In this document: positions 4,495 through 39,688 of the stretch, one piece after another
How positions within the stretch are numbered: position 1 is the stretch's first letter
How the letters are laid out: each line of letters begins with the position of its first letter
Source of the DNA: a virus
DNA length: 41,696 bases
IMG/VR virus record: IMGVR_UViG_3300032069_000022
Location: 1-41,696 of that record
Reading direction: 5' to 3' (one strand)
Notes under the pieces: model-generated
What the model saw: the letters and a program-made list of their open reading frames with translations, nothing else
Database searches by the model: none
What the model was told of the DNA's origin: nothing
Made by a program: the position numbers and the translations under genes

Positions 4495-4570
4495 TGGATC
4501 CCCCGCGAGGTCTTGAACCCCGAACCCGCTGCTTACAAGGCAGCCGCTCTACCCGTTGAGCTACGGAGGC
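4495..4570 (-). tRNA. tRNA-Thr (anticodon TGT)
   Basis: A full 76-nt cloverleaf reads from 4570 to 4495. Acceptor GCCTCCG pairs with CGGGGGA except for a terminal G1-A72 mismatch. The D-stem is GCTC/GAGC, the anticodon stem GCTGC/GCAGC with loop CTTGTAA (anticodon TGT, Thr, reading ACA), and the T-stem CGGGG/CCTCG with loop TTCAAGA. CCA is encoded. It lies inside the late operon, between a zinc-ribbon gene and the 104-aa gene, so it would be processed out of the structural transcript. Confidence 0.9.
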
Positions 4571-7859: not shown

Positions 7860-8825
7860 TTATAGACCAGTTATCTGAATCATCTTGCTCTCCCGATCGT
7901 TCGCTGTATCCCAGACACTCGCGTAAGCTAGGATTCCTCTCCACGCGATCGCCTTTACCCGCCCGAAGTCGGACTGGTAATTGGGATCGGCATAGAGCGC
8001 GGGAGCTTCGGCCTCGACTCTGTAAACCGCCTCGTCTCCGAAAACCACGCCCTCGGAAATAAGACCGGCCGCGTCAATGCTATTCACAAAGCACTGTTCA
8101 CGGTCAACCTGGACCACCCGTATACCCTCGGCCTTCCCCACTTCACTTCTGAAGAAGAGATCGCCTTTCTGAAGGTACATGTGGACCTGCTGCCACAGAG
8201 GGTCAATTTTGAGACCACGGGTATTTTTTCGAGAGGTCAGCATTACGAAATCGTCTCCCTCGAAAGGTGGGCAGTGGATGTCGCCATCCAGATAGTCCCG
8301 AAGAATTCCCATGTGGTCAAAGGTCAGCGGAGAGGCAACGGTCGTAGCCGCCACACCGCTCGTTGTGAAAGTCCCACCAGAAGCAGAGGTGGGGGCGAAA
8401 ACGATCTTCACGTCAGTTGACATGAAAGCCCGGGCCGCAGCCGCGTCCATGATACGATCCATCTGGCGGGTAAGGGTCTTCTGAAGAATGGACTGAGGAT
8501 CGAATTTCCCAAGCTGCTCGCTCAGGTTCGTGTACTCAACCCCTCGGCCCCATTCCACCATCTTGATCGCCCGGTTACCGTACTGCAATTTGTCGATCGG
8601 AATCCTGGTAGATTCCTCAAGCTGAGCATTCGTGGTCGGATCGGGCAACTCCGTCACGTGCATGATGTTGAAGGTTTCACCCTTTTTCCGGCCAGCGCCA
8701 GGGGCGGGCTTTGTGAAGGGCACCACTTTCAGCTTCAGCGCACTCCAGTAGAGCAACTGATTGCTGATGAAGTGATTTTTATAGACACCGGTGTCGGCGT
8801 CAAAGCGTTCTGTTACTTGATAACC
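7860..8825 (-). CDS. Major capsid protein, exon 2 (main part)
   Basis: Exon 2 gives 321 residues starting GYQVTERFDADTGVYKNHFI, with a frame open well upstream of the first ATG (8756). It contains GAGRKKGETFNIMHVTELPD, STRIPIDKLQYGNRAIKMVEWG, LSEQLGKFDPQSILQKTL-RQMDRIMD and a C-terminal AWRGILAYASVWDT. This is the pattern of HK97-fold coat proteins of the N4-gp56/related type, and it follows a scaffold gene. The first part lies across a group I intron at 9397-9478. Spliced, and without the 4-bp duplication described there, the protein would be 347 aa. Splice borders are inferred from P1 pairing and frame. Confidence 0.85.
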   Translation of the reverse strand, partial: GYQVTERFDADTGVYKNHFISNQLLYWSALKLKVVPFTKPAPGAGRKKGETFNIMHVTELPDPTTNAQLEESTRIPIDKLQYGNRAIKMVEWGRGVEYTNLSEQLGKFDPQSILQKTLTRQMDRIMDAAAARAFMSTDVKIVFAPTSASGGTFTTSGVAATTVASPLTFDHMGILRDYLDGDIHCPPFEGDDFVMLTSRKNTRGLKIDPLWQQVHMYLQKGDLFFRSEVGKAEGIRVVQVDREQCFVNSIDAAGLISEGVVFGDEAVYRVEAEAPALYADPNYQSDFGRVKAIAWRGILAYASVWDTANDRESKMIQITGL

Positions 8826-9396
8826 CTTTCGGGCGGGTGGTCATTTCTGCCACCTCTTCGGGATTTCCCCGAAGACCAGACTATATCATCCCATTTGGGC
8901 CATGCTCATAGTCGTTGAGGATCTCGGAAGGTTTGAACAAGGGCCAGTTCATCTTCGGAATATTCCCTATCCTTATTTGAAAGGTCCTTTTTTGGAAGTC
9001 TCTTTTTTACAAATTGCAACATTAAAACCGCTTTTGTATTTTTAGTAATCAAGTGCGGAATTAATATTGGAAGTAAGATCTCAAGAGACGAAAGCCGGTT
9101 CACGTTTATTCCGTGAATCTGTTTCCTTCCAAAGTGTCCCGTTAAATCCCCGCCATTGCGGTGAAACACATAAAAGGAAACCTTAAGACTTTCATAAATT
9201 TTGGTTATTTCCAAAATCATTCCAGGATCGGTGTTGCAGATCGTTATAATCGGAGTGAATCTTTGATGTCCGCTTTTGTTTGATCCGCCAAACAACAACG
9301 AACCTTCTCCATCCACGATACCAGCTAACCATCCGATCCTTGCTTCCGTTACCTGCTGATTGTCCATTGTTCCATCCTTTATATTTTTACCTAAGC
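8826..9396 (-). mobile_element. Group I intron in the major capsid gene
   Basis: The segment separates two in-frame capsid exons. Core elements on the minus strand: R-type CAACGACTATGAGC (P7 strand GACTA, 8909-8913), P8 hairpin CCCAAATGGG (8890-8899), S-type GATGATATAGTC (P7 strand TAGTC, 8879-8883), then P9 TCTTCGGG/CCCGAAGA (8855-8875) and two further small hairpins. P1 can form between exon end ATTACT and intron GGTAAA, giving the expected U-G at the splice site. The intron then starts GCTTAGG at 9396 and ends in G at 8826, 571 nt. It carries a LAGLIDADG gene whose last codons overlap the P7 strand. The exact 3' site is the least certain point. Confidence 0.85.
8906..9367 (-). CDS. LAGLIDADG homing endonuclease (intron-encoded)
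   Basis: 153 aa with one LAGLIDADG motif (GWLAGIVDGEG, residues 12-22), so it should act as a homodimer that cuts intronless capsid alleles and drives intron homing. Later parts fit the fold: TPIITICNTDPGMILEI, GINVNRLSSLEILLPILIPH and LITKNTKAVLMLQFVKKR. The ATG is preceded by AAAGGATGGAAC. The stop codon lies within the intron's conserved R/P7 sequence, so coding and ribozyme sequence overlap. There is no sign of decay. Confidence 0.92.
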   Translation of the reverse strand: MDNQQVTEARIGWLAGIVDGEGSLLFGGSNKSGHQRFTPIITICNTDPGMILEITKIYESLKVSFYVFHRNGGDLTGHFGRKQIHGINVNRLSSLEILLPILIPHLITKNTKAVLMLQFVKKRLPKKDLSNKDREYSEDELALVQTFRDPQRL

Positions 9397-9478
9397 AGTA
9401 ATAAAGGCTTTAGGATTTTCCAGCATATCGCAAGGTTTATACTGGATCGAATTAATTGGTCCAGTTCATAGCTGCCAT
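9397..9478 (-). pseudogene. Major capsid protein, exon 1, with apparent 4-bp frameshift
   Basis: ATG at 9478 follows AGGAGAAATCTC, 12 bp after the scaffold gene, exactly where a capsid start is expected. It reads MAAMNWTN then TAA. Another frame reads SIQYKPCDMLENPKAFIT up to the intron. AATTAATT at 9450-9457 is a tandem AATT; with one copy removed the two parts join as a 26-codon exon in frame with exon 2. So either there is a real 4-bp duplication, a sequencing or assembly error, or translation starts internally at ATG 9426 (MLENPKAF), which lacks a ribosome site. Confidence 0.75.
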
Positions 9479-18801: not shown

Positions 18802-19329
18802 ATGGGAAAGTTTACTGACTTAACTGGAAAAGTTTTTGGACGTTGGACGGTAGAATATCGTTACGGCATCAACAACTCCGGAAGTGTTTTATGGATGTGT
18901 CGCTGTTCGTGTGGGACCCGAAGAAAGATAAGGAGCCCAGACCTAACAAGAGGTGCCAGTACGAAATGTAAAAGCTGCCTAAAACTACCCCGGGGAGAGG
19001 AAAGATTTAATGCCCTATTTAAACTTACCCAATACAACGCCAGAAAACGTGGGTATTCTTTTGAAATATCAAAAAATCAATTCCGAACATTAATTACAAG
19101 TCAGTGTTTTTATTGCGGATCTAATCCAGGACAAATAATCAATGGTCCTTGAGGTCCATATATTCACGGAGGAATTGATAGAATAAATAATGAAATCGGA
19201 TACTTAATAAATAACTTAGTTCCTTGCTGTAAATGGTGCAATCAAGCAAAACACACAAGATCTGTAGCAGATTTTATGTCCTGGATAAAACAGATATACG
19301 AAAATTTCATAATAAAAGGAGGGAGTTAA
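18802..19329 (+). pseudogene. HNH homing endonuclease interrupted by an in-frame TGA
   Basis: The frame reads 116 codons (MGKFTDLTGKVFGRWTVEYR... CFYCGSNPG...NGP), then TGA at 19150-19152, then continues open to 19329 with the rest of the nuclease: GPYIHGGIDRINNEIGYLI, VPCCKWCNQAKHTRSVADF. The paired CxxC and CCxxC knuckles and the GIDRINN motif define an HNH enzyme, so the TGA splits one protein. It is a nonsense mutation or a read-through site. The N-terminus matches the endonuclease at 21891-22439. The final TAA overlaps the recombinase ATG. Confidence 0.82.
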
Positions 19330-20051
19330 TGGACGCTGTGGGTTACGTCAGGGTGTCGACTTCAGAGCAAAATATCAGCGGGCTCGGACTTGAGTTCCAA
19401 CGCCAGAGAATTACTGAATTTTGTAAGTCTCAAAACTTAAATCTAGTGGAGATTATCGAAGAGGGCAACGGACTCTCGGGTGGGGTTCCTATTGAAAACA
19501 GGCCAGCCGGGTCACGCTTGTGCAAAATGATAATGAGTAAAGGCAGGACCGTCAGGGCCGTCGTGACTCTCAAATTAGACAGGGCCTTTCGGGATACAGA
19601 AGATTGCTTACATCATGCAAAAGAGTGGCTCCATCATGGAGTGGCCGTACATTTCCTTGATCTTGCCGGACTAGATCTGTCGTCCGGGGTAGGGATGATG
19701 CAACTAACAATGATGGCTGGATTTTCTGAGATGGAAAGACGATTGATATCTGACAGAACAAAGTCGGCCTTGAGTATAAAAAAGGCAAGAGGCGAAAAAA
19801 CCGGTGGACACGTTCCTTATGGCTACTCCTGGGAACTGAACAAGGAGGGCGTTAAGATCCTGAAGCCCTGGAAGATCGAGCAGGAGGTGATCGGGCTGAT
19901 AAAGAAAATGCGCGAGATGAAATTAAGTCCAGAAAAGATCGCGGCTAAACTAAATGAGTCCGGAATAAAAACAAAACTCGGGTCGCTCTGGAGTTTCAAA
20001 CAGATCTATAGAATTTTAGCAAGGGAGGATAAGAATGAAAAACCGAAATGA
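19329..20051 (+). CDS. Serine site-specific recombinase (resolvase/invertase family)
   Basis: 240 aa. I chose ATG 19329, which overlaps the previous TAA and has AGGAGGG upstream. The catalytic domain starts MDAVGYVRVSTSEQ, with nucleophile S10 and R8, followed by TLKLDRAFRDTED and the helix E sequence GFSEMERRLISDRT. The C-terminus has GGHVPYGYSW and a helix-turn-helix-like LSPEKIAAKLNESG...WSFKQIYRIL. It is too short for a large serine integrase with a zinc ribbon, and more like small phage integrases or invertases. It would integrate or excise the phage or invert DNA; no att site was identified. Confidence 0.88.
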   Translation: MDAVGYVRVSTSEQNISGLGLEFQRQRITEFCKSQNLNLVEIIEEGNGLSGGVPIENRPAGSRLCKMIMSKGRTVRAVVTLKLDRAFRDTEDCLHHAKEWLHHGVAVHFLDLAGLDLSSGVGMMQLTMMAGFSEMERRLISDRTKSALSIKKARGEKTGGHVPYGYSWELNKEGVKILKPWKIEQEVIGLIKKMREMKLSPEKIAAKLNESGIKTKLGSLWSFKQIYRILAREDKNEKPK

Positions 20052-21480: not shown

Positions 21481-21913
21481 TTGGTCTCCATTCCGGCTGC
21501 CCGTATTGCAACCGATCTGCGTCCATCACTACCTCGATATCTGGACGGTGACGCTGAATCAGTTTGCCTATCAAAAGATTGTGACACGCCAGGGTCCCAT
21601 TTTCTGCAAACCACTCCTGGGCGTTCTTGGAGTTTGGGCACCAACATAAAAGCGCCAGATCGATCGCGGGGTCCAGTTCATCCAGCCACCCCTTCACGTA
21701 TTCCCATCTTTCCCTTAACCCTGCTGCGTATGCCGCAGCAAATTCTTTTATCGGATCTTTAAAATCTTCTAAGTGAAGAGGAACTGCGCCAACTCCCTCC
21801 GCTCCAAGAAAATCCAGTACCCGGTAATGCTCTCCTGTGGGCATCCACCTGGCTACCGATGCTTTGGCCATCGCAAACTGAGGAGCGATCTTAAATGACG
21901 TTAGGATTACCAC
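21473..21913 (-). CDS. DUF488-like protein
   Basis: 146 aa from a GTG start at 21913 behind AGGATATTTA. The layout VILTSFKIAPQFAMAKASVA, a central helix pair and the C-terminal ALLCWCPNSKNAQEWF, then GTLACHNLLIGKLIQRHRPD recalls DUF488 proteins, where a late LLC...CHR/CH motif closes the fold. Those proteins have no settled function, with nucleic-acid or phosphatase-like roles proposed. The start lies inside the end of an HNH gene, implying that the endonuclease inserted just in front of it. Confidence 0.55.
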   Translation of the reverse strand: MVILTSFKIAPQFAMAKASVARWMPTGEHYRVLDFLGAEGVGAVPLHLEDFKDPIKEFAAAYAAGLRERWEYVKGWLDELDPAIDLALLCWCPNSKNAQEWFAENGTLACHNLLIGKLIQRHRPDIEVVMDADRLQYGQPEWRPND

Positions 21914-22439
21914 TAAATATCCTCTTATGATTCGGGTCGTTTTGTTCTTCCCATGTTGCCCACCGACAGTTTCTGGGTTCGTAATTTCCGTTTGGATCTT
22001 TTCTATCTAAGGTTTTTCCTTCCGGTCGAATACCCATATCATCAAGAAAATTTTCAAATGATTCAATCCAACGATCACACATCTTAATTCCTAGAGCACC
22101 GTAAATAGGATAGTCTTTGTTCTGGGGATTATTACACCTCTGTTTAATAGATTGCCATGCACGATACGTTGGTTTGGTAGATAATCCATGGGTGGCCCTT
22201 TTGTGCCCCTGTTTTATTGCATTCTCAGTCCTAAGACAACCACACGAACAGGCCCTTCTAGATAAAAGAACGTGGGACCACTCTTCAATATGATTTCCAC
22301 ACTCACAAATACAAAAATACCTAGCTCTCCTGTGTCCGTCTTTTTCACATGGTAAAATTCCAACAAGAGACTCAACGGTTAGTCTTCCAAACACCCTTCC
22401 CTTAAGATCCTTAATTTTACCCACTATATTCAACTCCAT
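21891..22439 (-). CDS. HNH homing endonuclease (zinc/AP2-type layout)
   Basis: 182 aa from ATG 22439. A GTG at 22424, giving MGKIKDLKGRVFGRLTVESL, matches the start of the endonuclease at 18802 (MGKFTDLTGKVFGRWTVE) and may be the true start. Cysteine pairs FCICECGNH and ACSCGCLRT form a zinc knuckle. They are followed by TYRAWQSIKQRCNNPQNKDY, MCDRWIESFENFLDDMG and TLDRKDPNGNYEPRNCRWAT, the catalytic block of this common phage endonuclease family. It overlaps both neighbours, leaving them intact. It is probably active. Confidence 0.85.
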   Translation of the reverse strand: MELNIVGKIKDLKGRVFGRLTVESLVGILPCEKDGHRRARYFCICECGNHIEEWSHVLLSRRACSCGCLRTENAIKQGHKRATHGLSTKPTYRAWQSIKQRCNNPQNKDYPIYGALGIKMCDRWIESFENFLDDMGIRPEGKTLDRKDPNGNYEPRNCRWATWEEQNDPNHKRIFSGNPNVI

Positions 22440-22611
22440 CTTCGATACATACAGGACAACGATGAAGCCATTCACTGTTAACCTTAAACGGTCTCCACCC
22501 CAAAAATCGCATCTCTTCGATGGCATCGTAAATAGTGGAGCAGTCTAGTTCCTCGTAATTAGCACAACAATCGCAACATACCGTATAACCGAATTCATTT
22601 CCTTCGATCAT
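22417..22611 (-). CDS. Small Cys-rich protein
   Basis: 64 aa. Paired cysteines CCDCC near residue 12 and RCPVC near 51 frame AIEEMRFLGWRPFKVNSEWL, giving a likely two-knuckle zinc domain of a type frequent in phage early operons. Its 3' end is overlapped by the HNH start. No function known. Confidence 0.72.
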   Translation of the reverse strand: MIEGNEFGYTVCCDCCANYEELDCSTIYDAIEEMRFLGWRPFKVNSEWLHRCPVCIEDGVEYSG

Positions 22612-37550: not shown

Positions 37551-39210
37551 TGGGGTTTCGGGGCTCCCCTATTTCGGGATCGTGCCATTCGCATTCTGGT
37601 ACAAAAATAGATCCATTATGAAGTTTGAATGTCCTAATCCACCCTCGGGGATTCCTCCCTTTGTATGATTTTGCATCCACAATCTTCGCCAGATTAATCC
37701 TTCTTGGGTTTCCCCTTTCGTCCTGCCCCATAAAATGATCCAAGGTAATATACAATCTCGATTTCTCAATGCTGAACGTTCCACCTCTACCATAAGTGGC
37801 ATTGGGGTCTTTGTGTAGAGCGATAAAACAAATTCCCTCTTTCAGCTTGTCATGGATCAAGCGGATCTCTCCGGCGATTTTATAGAAGTCATCGGTAATC
37901 TCTATGAAGTCAACGATAAATATTTTCTTTTCCTGGGTAATCAGATCGGACCAATTATTACCGCGAGATATTGGGGTGAAACTCCAATGCTCCAAGGGCA
38001 TTTCAAACTTAACAAGGCGATTTCTTAATTCGGTGGCTCCCATTTCGCTGTTCATGTAAACCAAGTCTTCGGCTTTCCAGTTATTAATACCTTGGTTTTC
38101 CTTGACTACGTTTAACATAAAAGCGGTCTTGCCTGCCGACTTGGAGCCTGCAATCACCACAATGTTTCCAGGGTACAGGCTGACATATTCATGGATAGAA
38201 AGAGGAATCTTGATTTTAAATTCCGTGGTCGGAGCGTGAAGAAAATCCATTACCTGAACATCGTCCTTATCTATACGTCTCCAGGACCCGTCCCGGGTGC
38301 CCACCTTCTCTACTATATTTTTATCTCGAAGCTTTTGAAGGGTAGATCTGACGACAGCCATATCTTCGGGAGATTTAGCGCCAAGAGCAAAGCAAACATC
38401 CTTGACGTAAAACATCCCGTCAGTCATCGAAACATAATTTTCTACATCCTGAATCCACGAACGCCCTTCCTTGCCCGTGGCCTTGATTGCCGACTGAAGC
38501 TTTATTTCTGCTTCTTTTTCAGAGAAAGGAGGATTACACGCTTCTGCATTTTTATAGATAACTTCCCTAACTTGTTCAACGCCCATCCCTCCCCGGAGCA
38601 AGCTACAGGCGGTGAAAAATAAGGCCTTATCTCGATTGCCCTGCTCAAAGAGTGAGCCTTCAATCGGGGGTAAACTTTTTCGGTCATCAGTTTTTACCTC
38701 AGCCTTATTTCCAAATAAGGCAGCCAGCACCGCAGAAGGAGCCTCGGCAATGGGGCAGGAGTCTGGGGGGATGATCCATATATATTTCTTTCCGTCTGTT
38801 TTGATTGAAGGAGGCGCAACCACATATCCCCCTTCCCCTCGCACGTCATAACCAAGTGCCTTCGAGGAATTCCTAACTCCATTGTGATACTGAAGATACA
38901 GGTGTTGTCCTCTTGGTGTTTGCGCCGTAACTGTAAGAAAATTTTCCGGTAAAAGGCTTTCGATTTTTTTAATTGATTCATCATCATCTCCATCCAGGAC
39001 CATTACTCCGCTCAGTTTCCCGGTTACAATAGCCACCATGGAGAGCGGGAATTTTTGCCACCACTCTCGGATTTCTTTTTCCGAGGCGCGAGCCTTTTGA
39101 TAAAGAAGCCAATTAACTAGCGGCTTTTTATTTTCAGGATGGCAAGGTATAACAGAGAATCCATATTTATTTCTATATTCTAATGCAGCCTCAAGTGTTG
39201 CGTTATTCAT
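37540..39210 (-). CDS. Primase-polymerase/helicase fusion
   Basis: 556 aa from ATG 39210 (MNNATLEAALEYRNKYGFSV), chosen over an upstream start inside the HNH gene. The N-terminal bifunctional primase-polymerase domain has VLDGDDD (D73, D75), TPRGQHLYLQY (H103) and YDVRGEGGYVVAPPS (D122). A winged/linker region follows to about 340. The C-terminal RecA-like helicase has Walker A G355-SKSAGKT362 and Walker B FIVDFIE. It would start and unwind replication. Its ATG overlaps the HNH stop, so the endonuclease sits right in front of it. Confidence 0.88.
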   Translation of the reverse strand: MNNATLEAALEYRNKYGFSVIPCHPENKKPLVNWLLYQKARASEKEIREWWQKFPLSMVAIVTGKLSGVMVLDGDDDESIKKIESLLPENFLTVTAQTPRGQHLYLQYHNGVRNSSKALGYDVRGEGGYVVAPPSIKTDGKKYIWIIPPDSCPIAEAPSAVLAALFGNKAEVKTDDRKSLPPIEGSLFEQGNRDKALFFTACSLLRGGMGVEQVREVIYKNAEACNPPFSEKEAEIKLQSAIKATGKEGRSWIQDVENYVSMTDGMFYVKDVCFALGAKSPEDMAVVRSTLQKLRDKNIVEKVGTRDGSWRRIDKDDVQVMDFLHAPTTEFKIKIPLSIHEYVSLYPGNIVVIAGSKSAGKTAFMLNVVKENQGINNWKAEDLVYMNSEMGATELRNRLVKFEMPLEHWSFTPISRGNNWSDLITQEKKIFIVDFIEITDDFYKIAGEIRLIHDKLKEGICFIALHKDPNATYGRGGTFSIEKSRLYITLDHFMGQDERGNPRRINLAKIVDAKSYKGRNPRGWIRTFKLHNGSIFVPECEWHDPEIGEPRNPNAH

Positions 39211-39688
39211 TAGAACCTTTCTTTTTAAGGTTCTCAACTAACCTTATGGCATGATCCAAGAGTTCTTTCTCGGATCGATCCCCCTTCATTAAATTACACT
39301 GACAACAGATTACCTGAACGGTATCTATTTTAATGGAGTGTCCGTTGTTAATTCGGTCTAGGCTTGGTGAGTTTGGTTTGGTCTTACCTTTTGTTCCTAA
39401 GCTCCAGTCTAAAACGGAGGAACAATAAAGGCATTCCCTTACTTGGGTTGCCATTCTCTCCAGTTCATCTACGGAGATTGCAACATCATAACCCCTTCTT
39501 CGATGATTTTTTATGGTAGACCTGCACCACAGCCTAACAGGATTTGCCTCGTTAGCCCTGCGTAGTTGTTCCTTGTATTTTTCTGGATTATCAGATCTCC
39601 ACCTCCGAAGATATTTACGAGCCTCGTCTTTATGTTTTTTTCGATACTTCTTTTGGGTATTGGACCTTAAGGCTTCGGGTTCGGACAT
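39203..39688 (-). CDS. HNH endonuclease, intact, in front of the primase gene
   Basis: 161 aa. The basic N-terminus (KKYRKKHKDEARKYLRRWRS, DNPEKYKEQLRRANEANPVR) resembles that of the broken HNH at 35844. The HNH core is ECLYCSSVLDW, SLDRINNGHSIKIDTVQVIC, CQCNLMKGDRSEKELLDHAI, with paired CxxC and CCxC ligands and the N of CN. It overlaps the Cys-rich gene by 22 nt and the primase start by 8 nt, leaving both whole. A free-standing homing endonuclease, probably active. Confidence 0.86.
   Translation of the reverse strand: MSEPEALRSNTQKKYRKKHKDEARKYLRRWRSDNPEKYKEQLRRANEANPVRLWCRSTIKNHRRRGYDVAISVDELERMATQVRECLYCSSVLDWSLGTKGKTKPNSPSLDRINNGHSIKIDTVQVICCQCNLMKGDRSEKELLDHAIRLVENLKKKGSNE

Follow-up and report, generated by a model that had tools for sequence, protein, structure and literature searches.

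The minus-strand segment 8806-9458 of the phage record IMGVR_UViG_3300032069_000022 (41.7 kb; the window, i.e. the whole stretch of 41,696 nt that was analysed) is very probably a group I intron with a homing endonuclease gene at the 5' end of the major capsid protein (MCP) gene, which would use a C·A pair at its 5' splice site and be capable of splicing and homing. Its assignment, from sequence comparison and modelling, to the group I introns with a LAGLIDADG homing endonuclease gene in a major capsid gene is well supported, since core helices with covariation, related introns, a restored reading frame and the protein fold all point to it. The element itself is of an ordinary kind, group I introns with an endonuclease in phage late genes being already known. 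The gene and its insertion comprise the following features:

9459-9478, minus strand: MCP exon 1, 20 nt, encoding MAAMNW plus bases 1-2 of a Thr codon; intron-less homologs read M..NWTFDAD unbroken
9452-9454, minus strand: in-frame TAA ending MCP translation of unspliced RNA, with an 8-aa product
8806-9458, minus strand: predicted group I intron, 653 nt (restored frame, core helices, blastn matches to phage introns, weak RF00028 match)
8906-9367, minus strand: LAGLIDADG homing endonuclease ORF, 153 aa, with the motif WLAGIVDGEGS (PHROG 5046)
7860-8805, minus strand: MCP exon 2, 946 nt including the stop codon

Insertion point in the major capsid gene

The MCP gene runs on the minus strand from 9478 to 7860, with a Shine-Dalgarno-like AAGGAG upstream of exon 1. 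Exon 2 falls into PHROG 1357 (major head protein, E 1.1e-7) and shows 52-68% identity to environmental phage MCPs from 16 IMG/VR loci; that MCP sequence flanks the intron on both sides had been recognised in the original prediction. The homologs, i.e. the 16 IMG/VR loci and two Thermodesulfobacteriota metagenome-assembled genomes, start with an unbroken M..NW(T/E)(F/Y/W)D, and the junction NWT|FDAD is continuous in 16 of 16 close relatives. In the window, 653 additional bases separate ATGGCAGCTATGAACTGGAC (9478-9459) from CTTTGACGCC (from 8805). When 9478-9459 is joined to 8805-7860, the result is MAAMNWTFDADTGVYKNHFISNQ, in frame and with zero added residues, and the encoded MAAMNWT-FDADTGVYKNH corresponds to the uninterrupted N-terminus of the MCP homologs; likewise, removal of 8806-9458 leaves MAAMNWTFDADTGVYKNH in frame. 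By homolog comparison, the insertion point lies between bases 2 and 3 of Thr codon 7. At the sequence level, the intron-less homologs thus demonstrate the insertion and fix its ends.

Since the exon join matches the homologs without an extra residue, the element comprises 8806-9458 and not 8826-9396. The original prediction had placed a 571-nt intron at 9396-8826, behind an 82-nt first exon, 26 codons after the start and with a U-G pair in P1. Nothing speaks for this version beyond core motifs that both models have in common, and it retains next to no probability: a TAA at codon 9 lies within the proposed exon, the homologs have no extra residues here, and the terminal G and P9.0 sit at 8806-8808. 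Both the homolog junction and the stop in the reading frame rule out the 82/571 boundaries, so that the first exon measures 20 nt, the intron 653 nt and the splice-site pair becomes C·A. Homologs with continuous sequence had been named as a possible refutation, which was wrongly framed, as such intron-less homologs prove the insertion.

An assembly artefact or chimera in the metagenomic contig is extremely unlikely. It is true that the intron comes from a single IMG/VR record, with no second copy in the collection, but both halves of the ribozyme core are in register with the exons, the flanks fit together precisely, and the layout recurs in relatives from many independent contigs.

With regard to the remainder of the window, a tRNA gene (4498-4570, 52 bits) lies on the minus strand among structural genes, and a serine recombinase gene (19233-20051; Resolvase, Pfam 6e-27), which may encode an integrase, lies on the plus strand among minus-strand genes. 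Two of the MCP homologs (L055 and L056) are found in metagenome-assembled genomes of Candidatus Desulfaltia and of another member of the Thermodesulfobacteriota, a hint of the host group.

Ribozyme core and endonuclease gene

The P7 (GACUA/UAGUC, 8913-8909 / 8883-8879), P8 and P9 helices that had been predicted are present, as is the LAGLIDADG ORF (9367-8906), and the core can be assigned as follows, in the direction of transcription:

9459-9465, minus strand: P1 exon strand ACUGGAC, its final C being the 5' splice-site nucleotide
9441-9447, minus strand: P1 internal guide sequence AUCCAGU, with A9447 opposite C9459 and 22 nt upstream of the P4 UGC
9430-9435, minus strand: P3 5' strand CCUUGC, pairing with GCAUGG (8905-8900) with one U.U mismatch
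9421-9425, minus strand: P4 5' strand UGCUG
9374-9416, minus strand: P5 domain AUCC ... GGAU, pairing assigned by eye
9354-9358, minus strand: P4 3' strand CAGCA, within endonuclease codons 4-5
8909-8913, minus strand: P7 5' strand GACUA, in the last ORF codons; A8915 pairs with U8878, and C8914 is bulged
8900-8905, minus strand: P3 3' strand GCAUGG
8890-8899, minus strand: P8 hairpin CCC AAAU GGG
8879-8883, minus strand: P7 3' strand UAGUC, part of the S motif GAUAUAGUC
8856-8874, minus strand: P9 hairpin CUUCGGG GAAAU CCCGAAG
8836-8854, minus strand: P9.1 hairpin GGUGG ... CCACC, almost identical in the IMG/VR intron L136
8806-8808, minus strand: intron 3' end, AC pairing with GU (8876-8875) as P9.0, then the terminal G (omega-G)

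Covariation was assessed in fixed-length core segments of the window intron and 15 relatives, aligned without gaps. Across these 16 introns, 97.7% of the cells of P1, P3, P4 and P7 are paired, with 66 two-sided changes that affect 14 of the 24 pairs, and the covariation value (0.415 vs a shuffled mean of 0.144) was reached in 0/500 shuffles; sliding the alignment by one to three columns leaves at most 47% paired. P3 in particular varies among the relatives (CUUGGC/GCCGAG, UUUAAC/GUUAAA, CGCAAC/GUUGCG, CACUGC/GCAGUG and others), and the outer pair of P7 is A-U in seven and G-C in nine of the 16 introns. The window intron keeps every counted pair except for one in P3 and the splice-site pair of P1.

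In addition, the 5' half of the intron (around 80 bases) matches phage introns by blastn, i.e. those of PBS1 (2e-7), AR9 (1e-5) and Lak phages (1e-4), as well as Thomasclavelia and Staphylococcus phage introns, several of the matched introns being confirmed by RF00028 with up to 81 bits. Given these blastn matches to AR9/PBS1/Lak/Staphylococcus phage introns, the window intron is a candidate member of the phage-type subgroup IA. The homology to the RNA polymerase introns of Bacillus phage AR9/PBS1 lies in the core (around 80% over 72 nt by blastn), and these and other phage IA-type introns share the P3-P4-P5 and P7-P9.0 layout of the window. They differ in their location, the annotated ones lying within or next to genes for RNA polymerase, DNA polymerase, nrdA and endolysin, and in that any endonuclease they carry is of the HNH type.

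In the search with the Rfam group I model, which had been proposed as a check, RF00028 matches only weakly, with 20.1 bits vs a gathering score of 50 (E 0.013, all Rfam families, 901 nt), and at the gathering threshold Rfam returned no match in the intron region. The gathering score is a detection threshold and not a biological trait, and other phage introns also score below 50 bits with RF00028 (L019, 48.6; L022, 43.3). The low score is probably explained by the ORF sitting in P6, and the missing gathering match is not a refutation, because the blastn and covariation evidence is stronger.

The AlphaFold model of the endonuclease has a pLDDT of 91.3, and its best fold matches in the PDB are I-CvuI, I-CreI and I-MsoI; by its modelled fold, the ORF product is an I-CreI-type LAGLIDADG enzyme. 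These enzymes of algal organelle introns have a single-motif LAGLIDADG fold and around 150 aa like the window enzyme (TM-score 0.6-0.7), but are only 16-22% identical to it over aligned columns and belong to another host gene and host domain. Among 42 relatives, A15-G16 and G20-E21-G22 of the motif are invariant, and L14 and D19 are conserved in at least 90%. A Pfam search of the window endonuclease returned no match, and the protein of the related locus L050 gave sub-threshold LAGLIDADG matches. PHROG 5046 is labelled as HNH endonuclease and behaves as a LAGLIDADG family (L062-L141), the label being misleading.

The ORF lies in the P6 region. Its start, AUGGACAAUCAGCAG, doubles as J5/4 and P4', and the 3' side of P5 holds the Shine-Dalgarno-like AAAGGA of the ORF. 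It ends in CAACGACUAUGA, of which GACUA is a P7 strand. The predicted overlap of ribozyme and coding sequence is therefore real, at the P4' start as well as at the P7 end of the ORF, but the stop codon, which had been placed inside the P7 strand, lies just past it: UGA (8908-8906) follows directly 3' of the strand, clear of P7 and P3', and the last sense codons CGA CUA are within P7. Because both ORF ends overlap the core, the ribozyme in part dictates the two protein termini (NQQ and QRL, found also in several relatives). Overlaps of this kind between an ORF and a group I intron core have already been described (PMC3984707, Figure 2b).

Splice sites and the proposed C·A pair

The 3' splice site is fixed by four agreeing lines, i.e. 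the likeness to L136, the P9.0 pairing GU/AC, the terminal G and the homolog junction. L136 is an IMG/VR capsid gene intron with a related endonuclease and the same P9.1 hairpin, and its 3' end (GUAACAGAGCG) is nearly identical to that of the window (GUAACAGAACG). It interrupts a distant MCP at another site (KFR|QFC), with the junction GUUAUCAAGUAACAGAGCG^CAGUUCUGC compared with GUUAUCAAGUAACAGAACG^CUUUGAC (AACG^CUUUGAC) in the window, and has a canonical U·G 5' splice site. In 10/10 introns with an assigned 3' end, the two bases preceding the terminal G are complementary to the P9.0 dinucleotide; of these introns, the window, L136 and L083, where capsid homology sets the junction, are the independent cases, as the assignment itself used the P9.0 rule. 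P10, with only one possible pair in the window intron, was left out as evidence for the 3' site.

Given the frame and this 3' site, exon 1 can only end at codon position 2. A canonical U·G 5' splice site was considered and rejected, as no nearby exon ending in U keeps the capsid frame with this 3' site. A scan that allowed any splice-site pair returned as the top P1 of the window the helix with six Watson-Crick pairs and C·A at the splice site. Around 20 different introns have U·G at the identical 22-nt distance between guide and P4 UGC, a count of relatives that is somewhat favoured by the P1 scans, which gave ranking bonuses to U·G and to 22-23-nt spacing. In the counted alignment, U·G was found in 9/9, the window being the sole exception; the splice-site count excludes four introns whose P1 was not assignable (L077, L113, L067 and L103). 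The 5' splice site of the window intron thus appears to be set by C·A instead of the near-universal U·G, an assignment that concerns one genome.

The U·G pair at the 5' splice site is among the most conserved traits of group I introns, without being absolute, and group I membership therefore rests on the core. Early mutational work by Doudna in 1989 is said to have indicated that wobble geometry is what matters at this pair, and rare natural C-G exceptions were reportedly described by Hur and Waring in 1995. A literature search, excluding older subscription papers, returned no report of a C·A pair at the 5' splice site of a group I intron.

The exon C occupies position 2 of a Thr codon (ACN) that most homologs keep; nearly all others have Glu (GAR), and a U, which would alter the protein, was never seen. 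Opposite a C, a guide G would form a Watson-Crick pair, and a guide A a C·A wobble, for which the A has to be protonated. As C is indispensable for coding at the second base of the conserved Thr codon, the guide position may have changed from G to A, keeping the wobble geometry.

The same intron might also be spliced one nucleotide further 3' at both ends, so that exon 1 would end in ...GGACC, the pair would be C-G and the intron would end in C. As a C is common to both junctions, the spliced product would be identical; moreover, the G just before A9447 pairs with the next C, and C-G exceptions to U·G were reportedly described by Hur and Waring. We nevertheless regard this shift as quite unlikely: group I introns have a near-invariant terminal G, which would have to be replaced by C, the P9.0/omega register of the 10 relatives with an assigned 3' end would be lost, and the guide nucleotide would lie 23 nt from P4, where 22 is usual.

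Since P3 contains one U.U mismatch and P10 offers one possible pair, the intron assigned here, with its C·A pair, could be weak. The mismatch and the C·A pair, two departures from the family consensus, might even be early lesions of an intron that is decaying or has lost splicing, with the phage defective or the MCP made from an internal start. Degenerate members of the family may exist, as two relatives (L050 and L087) seem to be without a terminal G. Still, decay strikes us as unlikely, because neither the two exons, which are in frame, nor the endonuclease ORF show any damage, P9.0, P7 and P9 are perfect, and no change other than the one to C·A restores a wobble opposite the exon C; an internal start (TTG 8756) would also lose the conserved FDADTGVYKNHFISNQ stretch.

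In a functional intron with the C·A site, standard two-step guanosine-initiated splicing would restore the MCP: the ribozyme would bind guanosine in P7 and cut after C20 of the coding sequence, and the exons would be joined after the terminal G, giving a 321-aa MCP. On unspliced RNA, MCP translation would halt after eight codons, which would keep ribosomes out of the ribozyme, and the enzyme would be translated from this RNA by means of the AAAGGA in P5. Considering the enzyme class, homing into intron-less MCP genes may be expected; the enzyme would cut those of co-infecting phages near NWT|FDAD, upon which the intron would be copied in. Intron-less MCP alleles do exist, as seen in the IMG/VR homologs.

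A LAGLIDADG lineage possibly specialised on capsid genes

A single-sequence endonuclease scan of viral contigs found nothing, and an alignment of related endonucleases yielded 80 loci; in 25 of them, a motif search detected the 5' and the 3' half of a group I core. In 51 of the 80, a same-strand MCP gene lies within 1 kb, nearly always within 330 nt, and 49 of 73 non-redundant clusters are beside an MCP gene (including one more locus found only by PHROG); these proportions carry a bias toward capsid association, as the relatives were ranked and chosen by similarity to a capsid-located enzyme. The neighbouring capsid proteins belong to at least eight PHROG families (10, 267, 371, 752, 1328, 1357, 9953 and 14242). 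For an unrelated HNH family (from window 21891-22526), only 1/79 loci is beside an MCP gene, a control that may be undercounted since the capsid queries were drawn from the test set. Together, this suggests a homing endonuclease lineage concentrated at phage major capsid genes. Clustering near essential genes, among them capsid genes, is known from other homing endonucleases as well (PMC10448857); a comparable capsid clustering for one LAGLIDADG lineage was not found in the literature searched.

The phage of the window is rich in possible homing genes, with an endonuclease VII (419-1003, Pfam E 2e-19), two possible zinc-finger/HNH proteins and a possible HNH protein (18802-19152, 21891-22526 and 39203-39688).

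Among the closest known systems is that of Mycobacteriophage LittleE, which has a probable group I intron with a LAGLIDADG gene in its major capsid gene and is spliced in vivo (PMC3706429). Its endonuclease is homologous to that of the window by profile comparison (hhalign 98.6%, E 1.2e-15), but is encoded on the opposite strand, whereas that of the window is encoded on the sense strand, in overlap with the core. Furthermore, exon 1 ends in U in LittleE and in C in the window, and the LittleE insert (819 bp) is located deeper in a different capsid gene.

Several related loci show other arrangements. At L050:1740-2500 (IMGVR_UViG_3300032173_001324), the MCP gene of a relative is broken by a second intron, situated around 20 nt further downstream (VG|IYKN), that contains a homologous LAGLIDADG ORF (31% identity, E 9e-17), a P10 of 5 bp and U·G at the 5' site; if its 3' end is placed in accordance with the homologs and P10, the terminal nucleotide is A instead of G, and an RF00028 search of this locus returned no match. 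The capsid intron at L087:2880-3600 occupies the KFR|QFC site and, judged by the homolog junction, likewise ends in A (ACUCA|CAAUUUUG); it is possibly degenerate or has an unusual 3' splice site. In Stenotrophomonas phage StenR_269 (L057:2420-2940), a free-standing LAGLIDADG gene of the same family lies within the first MCP codons and the MCP start is duplicated (MSFSGMHFS* ... MSFSGMQYG), which is an endonuclease insertion with gene-start repair instead of an intron.

On balance, we lean towards a scenario in which a natural C·A pair replaces U·G because U is incompatible with the protein encoded at the invaded site, in an intron of a capsid-specialised LAGLIDADG lineage, comprising introns and free-standing endonucleases, that has been re-targeting across unrelated capsid families. 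The Rfam default threshold misses the window intron, and gene callers overlook or shorten such capsid genes. The apparent concentration at capsid genes would bear on the competition between co-infecting phages. If true, the natural C·A would mean that wobble geometry rather than the bases is conserved at the 5' splice site, and would tie the evolution of the ribozyme to the coding constraint of the gene it invades.
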